The notes beneath the pieces are model-generated. The model had not been told where the DNA came from, ran no database searches, and saw nothing but the letters and a program-made list of their open reading frames with translations. A program made the translations under genes and the position numbers. This document shows positions 25,658-28,536 of a DNA stretch of 64,000 bases, piece after piece (the first letter of the stretch is position 1; the number at the start of each line of letters is the position of its first letter). The stretch is taken from positions 2,413,931 through 2,477,930 of the forward strand of contig OY282355.1 of assembly GCA_958295525.1 (NCBI GenBank), read 5' to 3'. This stretch comes from an uncultured Dehalococcoidia bacterium (GTDB taxonomy: Bacteria; Chloroflexota; Dehalococcoidia; Lucifugimonadales; Australimonadaceae).

Positions 25658-25685
25658 TTGACATACGCCCGATATTCCGTATAGT
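25658..25685 (+). promoter_or_regulatory. Strong promoter of the secreted-protein triplet
   Basis: Consensus TTGACA (25658-25663), 16 bases, TATAGT (25680-25685). The leader of about 65 nucleotides contains an arm pair CCTGCG/CGCAGG enclosing G/C-rich sequence before GAGGAGG and the start codon. It is one of the best promoters in the window and implies high expression. Confidence 0.7.
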
Positions 25686-25755: not shown

Positions 25756-26289
25756 GTGATCCGAACGCATTCGTTGCTTACGCCGAGGTTCGCGTTGGTC
25801 TGGGTGGCCGCCGCTCTCTTGCTGGGGCTCGCCATCGCAGCCGCGCTCTCCAACGACAGAGGGAACGTCCGCGCCGACGGCCACGTCACCGGGGCCGAGA
25901 CCCTCGTGGTGACGCCGTCCGAGGCGGACTTCCAGCCGGGGCTCCGCAGTTCCCCGACATCCGTCTGGGTGTACGGCTCCGGCTTCACCCCCGGCGCGAG
26001 CGTCCTCGTGCTCATCGCCGACCAGCGGGGAGTCGCCACGGATATCGGGGCGCTTTCCGGCATTGACGTCGCCGCCAACGACGACGGCGCATTCGGATTC
26101 GAGTGGACGTTCGGTCGCTTCTCCCGCTCCGGCGTCGGCGGCGAGGGAATGCAATCCGTCCGCGCCGTGGACGCGGGCTCGTTCGACGAACTGGCCACCG
26201 CCCCCCTCGCCCTTTGCAACCTGACACGCAACGCCGACCTCGAAGAAGGGGCCGACCCCGCGGAAGTTCCGGGCCACTGCTCCGCCTAA
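25756..26289 (+). CDS. Secreted triplet protein 1, unknown family
   Basis: A 177-residue exported or membrane-anchored protein starting at GTG 25756, with GAGGAGG before it. The N-terminus has a basic start and a hydrophobic helix (about residues 12-31), then RADGHVTGAETLVVTP. The body is a beta-rich domain with VYGSGFTPGASVLVLIAD (about 75-92), NDDGAFGFEWTFGRFSR and a final LALCNL...HCSA with cysteines at 154 and 175. The same pattern recurs in the next two genes. GSGFxPG followed by strand-rich sequence looks like an immunoglobulin-like or IPT-type fold. I do not recognise the family. Confidence 0.8.
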   Translation: MIRTHSLLTPRFALVWVAAALLLGLAIAAALSNDRGNVRADGHVTGAETLVVTPSEADFQPGLRSSPTSVWVYGSGFTPGASVLVLIADQRGVATDIGALSGIDVAANDDGAFGFEWTFGRFSRSGVGGEGMQSVRAVDAGSFDELATAPLALCNLTRNADLEEGADPAEVPGHCSA

Positions 26290-26329
26290 CGGCGCAGGGC
26301 TTCGCAAACACGCCGAGTAGGAGGACTCA

Positions 26330-26911
26330 GTGATAGGCGCTACGACAATGACCAAACGGGCGGCCTCCATCTGGATCGCCGCAGGGCTCTTCGCCGGCCT
26401 CGTCTTGGCCGTCGCGCTCTCCGCAGTGCAGGGCGCGCGGGCGGACGGCCACGTCACCGGCACGGAGAGCATCGTCCTCTCCCAGACGGAAGTGAACTTC
26501 GAGCCCGGCGCGAGCCGCTCGGGAGAAGAGGTTTGGATCCGCGGCTCCGGCTTCACCCCCGGCATGCAGATAGACCTCCTCGTCGCGGACTTCCAGGGCG
26601 CGCTCTACATCCTGAGCAATTGCCGCTGGGGCAGCGACGGGCAATGCGACCCGGCCCGCTACCGCGACGGCGCGGGAAGCGTCTGGCCGCTCATCGTCAA
26701 CGATGACGGCGCGTTCGCCACCAAGTGGCGGCTTGGCCGCTTCACCCGCGCCAACGTCGGCGCGGAGCGGCTCGCGACCGTATGGGCGGCGGACGCGGCC
26801 AGTTACGACTTCCTCGCCAGCGCGCCGATAGCCCTTTGCAACTTGGAACGCAACGCCGATCTCGAAGAAGGGGCCGACCCCGTCGAAGTCCCCGACTACT
26901 GCTCGGCGTAA
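26330..26911 (+). CDS. Secreted triplet protein 2, unknown family
   Basis: A 193-residue paralogue of the preceding gene, 40 bases downstream, with TAGGAGG before GTG 26330. It keeps the N-terminal hydrophobic helix, RADGHVTGTESIVLS, the IRGSGFTPGMQIDLLVAD core, NDDGAFATKW then LGRFTR, and a near-identical C-terminus with cysteines at about 170 and 191. It differs by an insertion in the middle that contains two extra cysteines (NCRWGSDGQCDP), probably a second disulfide loop. ATG 26348 is an alternative start that would still include the hydrophobic helix. Confidence 0.8.
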   Translation: MIGATTMTKRAASIWIAAGLFAGLVLAVALSAVQGARADGHVTGTESIVLSQTEVNFEPGASRSGEEVWIRGSGFTPGMQIDLLVADFQGALYILSNCRWGSDGQCDPARYRDGAGSVWPLIVNDDGAFATKWRLGRFTRANVGAERLATVWAADAASYDFLASAPIALCNLERNADLEEGADPVEVPDYCSA

Positions 26912-26942
26912 GAACCGCTAGGTCCATAGGAGGTACTACATC

Positions 26943-27860
26943 GTGACGCACGCAATCGCAAAGCGCCCCCGGGCCGTGGTTCTCACGCTGATCGTGGCGG
27001 GTCTGCTGCTCGGGCTCATCGCAGGCAACGCCTTCCTCACCTCGAGGCAGGCGTCCGCCGACGGCCACCTCTCCGGTTTGGAGAACGTGGTCGTGGGCGA
27101 CCAGGTCGTTGACCACGAACTCGGCAGGCGGACGTCCCGCGAGACGGTCCGCATCTGGGGATCCGGTTTCGCTCCCGGGCAGGAGGTCATCCTGCTGGTG
27201 AACGACGGCCCCGGAACGCCGTCGGACATCACGAACTACGTGAGCAACAGGAGCGCGAACAACACGCTCGTCGCCAACGACCAGGGCGCGTGGACGTCCG
27301 TCTGGACGCTCGGCCGCTTCACGCGGCAACGCTCCGGCATCGGCCCCGGCGACGGCGACGTCGAGCGGGTGCGCTCCCTGAGCGTCATTGATCCCGGAAC
27401 GTTCGACGTTGTCGCATCCACCCCGCTCGCGTTCTGCCGCGTAACCGACCGCGCGAACGAGGTCGCCGCGGGCGTCGAGGCCGCCGAGGCCGTCGCCGCC
27501 GGGCATCAAGAGACGATTGACGGCCTGACCGCCTCTATGGAGGAAACGCAGGCGTCCATCGAGGAGCAGCAGGCGGCGCTGGCCGAGTTCCGCGCCAACG
27601 TGGTTCCGGATCTGCCCGATAGGCCGGTCAACGTGACCGACGCGGCTTGGGGGCTGGCCACCCGGTTCTACGCGGGACTGAAGGCCGCCGAAGACGCGCA
27701 AATCGCGGAGATGGAGGCGGGCATCGCGGAGGCGCAGGACAGCCTCTCGTCTATGCAAGACGACCTCGCGGCCGCGATGGCGGCTCTGGAGGGCGCGATG
27801 GCCGACATCGAGACGGCGAAGGCGGTCGTGATCGAGCCCCCGGCGCACTGCCCGGCGTAA
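26943..27860 (+). CDS. Secreted triplet protein 3 with coiled-coil hairpin, unknown family
   Basis: A 305-residue paralogue, 31 bases after the second gene, starting at GTG 26943. The first 165 residues follow the same plan: hydrophobic helix 11-30, SADGHLSGLENV, WGSGFAPGQEVILLVND, WTLGRFTR, then C165. The paralogues have 20 residues between the two C-terminal cysteines; this protein has 137 (C165 to C303). These form two long heptad-like helices (about 170-222 and 242-295), broken by a Pro-rich turn and VTDAAWGLATRF. The result looks like an antiparallel coiled-coil hairpin closed by a disulfide at its base. Confidence 0.8.
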   Translation: MTHAIAKRPRAVVLTLIVAGLLLGLIAGNAFLTSRQASADGHLSGLENVVVGDQVVDHELGRRTSRETVRIWGSGFAPGQEVILLVNDGPGTPSDITNYVSNRSANNTLVANDQGAWTSVWTLGRFTRQRSGIGPGDGDVERVRSLSVIDPGTFDVVASTPLAFCRVTDRANEVAAGVEAAEAVAAGHQETIDGLTASMEETQASIEEQQAALAEFRANVVPDLPDRPVNVTDAAWGLATRFYAGLKAAEDAQIAEMEAGIAEAQDSLSSMQDDLAAAMAALEGAMADIETAKAVVIEPPAHCPA

Positions 27861-27884
27861 CCCAACGCCAAAAGCGAACGTGAG

Positions 27885-27920
27885 AGAAGGCCATCCGGCG
27901 CCGCCGGATGGCCTTCTTGT
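27885..27920 (+). terminator. Intrinsic terminator after the secreted triplet
   Basis: AAGGCCATCCGGC (27887-27899) pairs with GCCGGATGGCCTT (27903-27915) around a three-base loop; TCTTGTTT follows. It closes the three-gene unit. Confidence 0.88.
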
Positions 27921-27955
27921 TTGGGACGCGGCGGGGGGCTTCTCTTTCCCTATCG

Positions 27956-27961
27956 TATAAT
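27956..27961 (+). promoter_or_regulatory. -10 element TATAAT for the DUF2442/DUF4160 pair
   Basis: Consensus TATAAT lies only 16 bases before ATG 27978, so the transcript would have a leader of about ten bases that includes GGAGG. No clear -35 is seen. Confidence 0.5.
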
Positions 27962-27977
27962 GGAGACGGAGGCGCGG

Positions 27978-28283
27978 ATGAGCAAACAAGCGATTCCCCG
28001 GTTGCTGGAGGCGGAAGCCCGCGAAGGCTGCCGCCTGTGGCTCCGCTACGCCGACGGAGCGTCCGGCGAAGTGGACCTGTCTTCCCTCGCAGGGCAAGGC
28101 GTTTTCGCCGCGTGGAACGACCGCAATTTCTTCGCGACCGCCCGCCTCGCGCCCGAGGGCGCGGTCGTCTGGGGCGACGACGAGCGCATAGACGCTTGCC
28201 CCGACGCGCTGTATATGCGGCTCACCGGCAAGACGCCCGAGGAACTGATGCCTGCCGCCCGCAAGCCGCTTGCCTATGCCTGA
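27978..28283 (+). CDS. DUF2442 domain protein
   Basis: A 101-residue protein. The core, RLWLRYADGASGEVDLSSL followed by GVFAAWND..FF, is the DUF2442 pattern, in which a short beta-rich domain reads out a strand-turn motif around an acidic residue (VVWGDDERIDACPDALYMRL). ATG 27978 with GGAGG upstream is used; the frame extends further upstream without support. It overlaps the DUF4160 gene by eight bases. The two domains commonly occur as adjacent genes and have been suspected to form toxin-antitoxin-like pairs. That is inference here. Confidence 0.8.
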   Translation: MSKQAIPRLLEAEAREGCRLWLRYADGASGEVDLSSLAGQGVFAAWNDRNFFATARLAPEGAVVWGDDERIDACPDALYMRLTGKTPEELMPAARKPLAYA

Positions 28284-28536
28284 GATCGCGCGGTTCTACG
28301 GAATCATCATTCGCATGCATTTCGTTGATCACGCTCCGCCGCATTTCCACGCGCTCTATCAGGGCGCTAACGCCGCGATAGACCTTGAGCGGCTCGTAAT
28401 CTTGGACGGATGGCTTCCCAAGCGCGCGTTAGGCCTCGTGAACGAATGGGCGTCCCTCCACCAAGAGGAACTACGGCAAGCGTGGGAACGCAGAGAGCGC
28501 GGACAACCCGTAGGCTCAATTGACCCGCTTCCCTGA
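28276..28536 (+). CDS. DUF4160 domain protein
   Basis: An 86-residue protein with the family signature: PEIARFYGIIIRMHFVDH (residues 2-19), then the histidine-rich PPHFHALYQG (about 21-30), and a C-terminal helix with NEWASLHQEELRQAWE. The conserved H-x(5)-H-x-H pattern could bind metal or be catalytic. It is translated from within the end of the DUF2442 gene. Function is unknown. The partner arrangement favours a two-component module, but neither toxicity nor binding can be read from the sequence. Confidence 0.82.
   Translation: MPEIARFYGIIIRMHFVDHAPPHFHALYQGANAAIDLERLVILDGWLPKRALGLVNEWASLHQEELRQAWERRERGQPVGSIDPLP

Follow-up and report, generated by a model that had tools for sequence, protein, structure and literature searches.

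We describe here three adjacent genes, P1, P2 and P3, in a 64,000-nucleotide stretch of the genome of an uncultured Dehalococcoidia bacterium (that whole stretch being what we call the window), whose products are predicted to be exported and to share an Ig-like core. The third of these proteins carries, between two cysteines common to the family, an insert that both structure prediction and its pattern of length change support as an antiparallel helical hairpin with a conserved tip. The genes and the signals that enclose them are as follows.

25658 to 25685, plus strand: candidate promoter TTGACA-16-TATAGT upstream of P1, conserved in same-genus genomes
25756 to 26289, plus strand: P1, 177 amino acids, predicted exported; predicted Ig-like/neocarzinostatin-like core; Cys154 and Cys175, spacer 20
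26330 to 26911, plus strand: P2, 193 amino acids, predicted exported; P1-type core with Cys98-x7-Cys106-DP; terminal Cys170 and Cys191, spacer 20
26943 to 27860, plus strand: P3, 305 amino acids, predicted exported; core at residues ~46-165; predicted helical hairpin between Cys165 and Cys303
27884 to 27918, plus strand: predicted intrinsic terminator with a 16-bp stem, a 3-nt loop and a T-rich tail

The original prediction of three tandem paralogues enclosed by a strong promoter and a strong terminator is borne out. The open reading frames are contiguous and alike in their GTG starts and AGGAGG ribosome sites, and the proteins are 48% (P1/P2), 38% (P1/P3) and 34% (P2/P3) identical, with E values from 8e-58 to 4e-26. 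The promoter agrees with the consensus at 11 of 12 bases (one such site found, against 0.1 expected in 3.2 kb), and the terminator stem folds at -31.4 kcal/mol (z -7.4). Same-genus genomes have TTGACA-16-TATAG(T/C) upstream of P1 and genus g4 has a similar TTGACA...GATAGT site; at the position equivalent to the terminator, inspection of the relatives' sequence suggests GC-rich stems with T-rich stretches behind them. The three genes apparently form one transcription unit and, judging from the near-consensus promoter, would be highly expressed. Directly downstream lie a DUF2442 gene and a DUF4160 gene, which overlap (window 27921-28536, plus strand).

The argument for the hairpin turns on five features within P3.

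27435 to 27437, plus strand: codon of Cys165, which ends the last core strand and is the first member of the family cysteine pair
27441 to 27596, plus strand: helix 1, residues 167-218, first arm in the AlphaFold model
27621 to 27650, plus strand: tip RPVNVTDAAW, residues 227-236, [KR]P....[DE]A.W in the P3 orthologues of two genera
27639 to 27827, plus strand: helix 2, residues 233-295, second arm in the AlphaFold model
27849 to 27851, plus strand: codon of Cys303, second cysteine of the family pair

A helical hairpin between the two family cysteines had been proposed at the outset, and the proposal is now supported from two directions. First, AlphaFold models the insert as antiparallel helices with a turn, the helices lying mostly at pLDDT 91-98, and the motif [KR]PVNV[ST][DE]AAW, conserved at the P3 tip, lies in the turn region. 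Second, consider the lengths of the two arms, measured from the first cysteine to the tip motif and from the tip motif to the second cysteine. Six same-genus P3 orthologues have 32+10+37 residues and genus g4 has arms of 33 and 36, so that the spacer is 79 in every other P3 orthologue of the two genera, despite the quite different sequence in g4. The window protein has 61+10+66, an additional 29 residues on each side, with the tip aligned without gaps. It is the sole long version seen, so that the symmetric lengthening is a single event; an equal split of the 58 added residues would arise by chance about once in 59 times under an even random split. Because paired arms must lengthen together, the addition of 29 residues to each speaks, independently of any model, for an antiparallel hairpin.

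The heptad-like character originally ascribed to these segments did not hold up. Helix 1 peaks at a period of 3.5, a peak equalled by 211 of 2000 shuffles, and helix 2 peaks at 3.35; we therefore reject a coiled coil argued from heptad periodicity, the period not being significant against shuffles. Coiled-coil matches of P3 to CT398, HlyD, SMC and JetC look compositional and were set aside, as was a recent duplication as the source of the longer hairpin, there being no exact DNA repeat longer than 10 bases. The HlyD hairpin and the helical domains of PcsB and RipA are likewise antiparallel helical hairpins in exported or periplasmic proteins, and HlyD aligns with the P3 hairpin at a VIA Z of 9.8 and 1.6 angstrom over 106 residues, which may mean just a common arrangement. 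None of the three shows a sequence relation to P3, whose hairpin sits instead between the cysteines that end an Ig-like domain.

The tip also fits the suggestion that the insert is a docking arm. Mean pairwise identity among six P3 orthologues is 93% in the tip and 89% in the core, compared with 71% and 64% in the arms; the greater conservation of the tip thus stands as observed, and docking itself is what we infer from it. The hairpin would carry the tip tens of angstroms from the sandwich (~78 if helix 1 is straight), where it may dock onto a partner. Arm length would be changeable solely in both arms together, here by about eight whole helical turns (8 x 3.6 = 28.8 residues of alpha-helix, against 29 added), so that the direction of the tip would be kept.

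The pair of cysteines that in P3 brackets the hairpin is kept without exception, both in all P3 sequences and in 15 sequences of the P1/P2 type. The spacers first given for the window proteins (20 in P1, 20 in P2 and 137 in P3) are correct, and across the family we find spacers of 8, 10, 13, 14, 18, 20, 26, 79, 107 and 137: 13-20 in P1 and P2, 26 in the G014 protein, 79 in P3 and likewise in a G009 protein rich in Ala, 107 in genus g2, where the insert is a different one, and 8-10 in some distant paralogues. Since the spacers vary and the inserts differ, the cysteine slot accepts different inserts, and evolution appears to have used the cysteine-closed C-terminal loop as an insertion slot. VIA-align places the end of the P3 sandwich at residue 164-167, that is, at Cys165; the last strand would end at this cysteine, and its C-terminal partner would close the loop through a disulfide. 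Such a disulfide is likely, because the pair is invariant, the proteins are predicted to be exported and the window genome has a DsbA-family match; a search for VKOR found none. One could go further and see in the family a lineage-specific exported scaffold, with an interchangeable disulfide-closed slot (holding a short loop, an Ala-rich helix, a helical hairpin or the 107-residue insert), an arm whose sides grow in step, a tip that binds a partner and possibly a copper- or nickel-binding N-terminus, a composite picture that we consider possible but doubtful.

Two members with unusual spacers deserve separate mention. The g2 protein with the 107-residue spacer (L062:7757-9016, with a close copy in L014) has an N-terminal domain of ~130 residues that looks cupredoxin-like by eye and has no Pfam match. 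A distant paralogue in the window genome itself (L067:8156-8866; G000:C1 ~74,446) has a GSGLEP turn and two cysteines near the C-terminus with a spacer of 8, and similar genes occur in same-genus genomes.

As to the core, AlphaFold gives an Ig-like sandwich in P2 and P3, in models that are only moderately confident (P2 mean pLDDT 65, P3 loops below 50) and draw on 11-17 sequences of close relatives. In Foldseek, neocarzinostatin and macromomycin come top for the P2 and P3 models (E 1.3e-3 and 3.2e-4). In VIA-align the P3 core matches the neocarzinostatin family at Z 7.5-8.1 over 87-101 residues, a level at which other Ig-like domains tie; the sandwich is matched best by neocarzinostatin, macromomycin and C-1027, with actinoxanthin slightly lower. 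Other Ig-like domains score level with neocarzinostatin in the structural search with P2 as well. The members of this family (PF00960, NF040680) are likewise small exported single-domain Ig-like sandwiches, and they have V-x-GxGF-xP and DxxGxF motifs in an order like that of the triplet. Absent from the original description is a second conserved cysteine pair in P2, C-x7-C-(D/A)-P, which resembles the C...CDP pair of PF00960 proteins and which hhalign places upon that pair in the Chloroflexota PF00960 proteins, in an alignment that is overall non-significant (profile-profile probability ~1-4%). At the same time, there are differences. In the neocarzinostatin family two disulfides occupy fixed positions within the sandwich; P1, with its C-terminal pair only, has no counterpart of these, and P2 has a possible counterpart of one. 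The triplet, for its part, has the extra C-terminal cysteine pair with its inserts and a conserved three-gene arrangement, and no chromophore is known for its proteins.

The HMM scores do not support membership of the neocarzinostatin family, lying far below the cut-offs: the best NF040680 score is 15.7 bits against a cut-off of 86, with 3 of 15 members matching at all and P1 at E 0.01; PF00960 gives a sub-threshold best E of 0.039 in 1 of 15 members; and a PF00960 search of the window's own genome found no match. We regard the core as neocarzinostatin-like by predicted fold and not as an established member of the family. This bears on whether the proteins could be small-molecule carriers like the neocarzinostatin apoproteins, the sandwich cleft holding a hydrophobic compound that the P3 arm would pass to a membrane partner. 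The identity of the top P3 matches, the weak NF040680 match of P1 and the alignment of the P2 cysteine pair would fit such carriers. Nonetheless, every family score is below cut-off, the profile-profile probability is low, the fold is a common one for which other Ig-like domains do as well, and P1 lacks the expected cysteine pairs; we find the carrier role unlikely.

The IPT/TIG and other Ig-like (E-set) domains found in bacterial surface proteins also have the GSGFTPG turn and the sandwich fold; the triplet proteins differ in being single-domain and without repeats, and TIG (PF01833) matches none of the window proteins and, among 15 relatives, matches two, below cut-off (best E 0.0079). In two lipoprotein-like proteins (L077:1216-1788 and L041:1132-1776) an Ig-like domain with GxGFTPG comes after collagen-like repeats. 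More generally, searches of the triplet against the Pfam, NCBIfam, PHROGs and PADLOC families gave no match above any cut-off, PDB sequence searches gave nothing convincing, and we found no paper that describes the family. The claim of an undescribed surface module survives in that no family model reaches its cut-off, and fails in that the core fold is already known: the family is apparently undescribed and lineage-specific, assembled from known kinds of parts.

Each protein begins with a signal-peptide-like stretch ending in AxA|D (VRA|D in P1), which would direct its export. In nearly all close members (A/V)xA followed by D-G/S-H stands at the predicted signal-peptidase site, and the sequence between the hydrophobic stretch and AxA|D or VxA|D is variable. 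The ADGH motif reported earlier is indeed common to the genes, and it loses its standing as a domain motif since it marks the predicted cleavage point. Were the N-terminal helix to remain uncleaved, the proteins would be anchored in the membrane and the P3 hairpin would be a passive spacer; the hydrophobic stretches, at ~20 residues, are long enough to span a membrane, but the recurrence of the cleavage motif after them and the conserved P3 tip speak against this arrangement, which we judge improbable. In one relative (L004:2714-3358, minus strand, apparently the same genome as L022) P1 has 214 residues, part of the signal peptide and ADSH being duplicated.

An N-terminal X-X-His is an ATCUN-type motif, which binds Cu(II) and Ni(II), and the cleaved proteins would begin with just such a motif, D-G-H or D-S-H. 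P1, P2, P3 and the g2 and G014 single genes all retain A-D-[GS]-H amid variable neighbouring residues, the G009 protein retains X-X-His as GAH, the DGH stretch lies in a low-confidence and probably flexible part of the AlphaFold models, and a scan of the window genome for DNA encoding A-x-A-D-[GS]-H with G at +3 finds P2 and P3 only. Against metal binding, the corresponding residues are DGDHDH in the g4 P3 and DSAR in the G022 protein, cleavage is itself a prediction, metal genes show no linkage to the triplet, and the TG-E that follows the His is also conserved, so that the reason for conservation may be structural. Copper or nickel binding strikes us as improbable, a lead more than a finding.

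The window genome is a single contig of 2.51 Mb, and its named relatives are SAR202, Dehalococcoidia and Chloroflexi MAGs, among them bin16 from the sponge Aplysina aerophoba (PMC5649159). The triplet and its cysteines are both kept in close relatives, the point on which the original prediction had called for a check: the order P1-P2-P3 recurs in all five other same-genus genomes, in two from genus g4 and also in G200. The last of these is filed in another family of the order, yet its triplet and neighbours (L057, contig C7) are close to those of the window genus, and it may represent a misbinned contig or a transfer. A tree built on the cores resolves P1, P2 and P3 as one group each (support 94/97, 95/87 and 98/96), and since each group extends across g1 and g4, the triplet predates the split of these genera. 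The sister genera g5 and g2 have a single gene, which groups with P2 and stands at the triplet locus beside an acyl-CoA dehydrogenase gene, in g5 also beside a zinc dehydrogenase gene. The same two genes flank the triplet in other genomes of the window's genus. In the window genome the triplet adjoins ispE, ~1 Mb from the acyl-CoA dehydrogenase (L112, G000:C1:1453001-1473000), a rearrangement having separated them; the flanking genes are therefore not obligatory partners, and we reject a functional link to these metabolic genes. Elsewhere the family is rare, occurring in 16 of 250 genomes of the order and, within the phylum, in 5 of 400, a pair of them at marginal scores; no relative was found in viral contigs or plasmids. 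It looks almost confined to the SAR202/Dehalococcoidia-type lineage.

This distribution also weighs on the idea of a structural envelope or sheath, in which three abundant paralogues would tile the surface and the P3 arm would link subunits. The conserved promoter, the ribosome sites, the terminator, the predicted signal peptides and the common orientation of three paralogues all suit such a structure; the occurrence of one gene only in sister genera does not, nor does the lack of any anchoring domain after cleavage, and we think it a poor candidate.

Overall, what fits best is a set of binding or surface proteins with the P3 arm as its docking part. The full proposal, that one unit yields three exported Ig-like proteins with a disulfide-closed slot, that their sandwich domains bind a ligand or an envelope component outside the cell, and that the P3 arm docks its tip on a partner, we hold in even balance between acceptance and doubt. 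The triplet is a naturally occurring case of an Ig-like domain whose insertion slot is closed by a cysteine pair, and of a helical arm that changed length symmetrically with its tip retained, which may interest protein designers. Little is known about what is exported by SAR202-type bacteria, an abundant group with few cultivated members; in this context, the triplet, with its strong-looking promoter, is a compact and conserved candidate.
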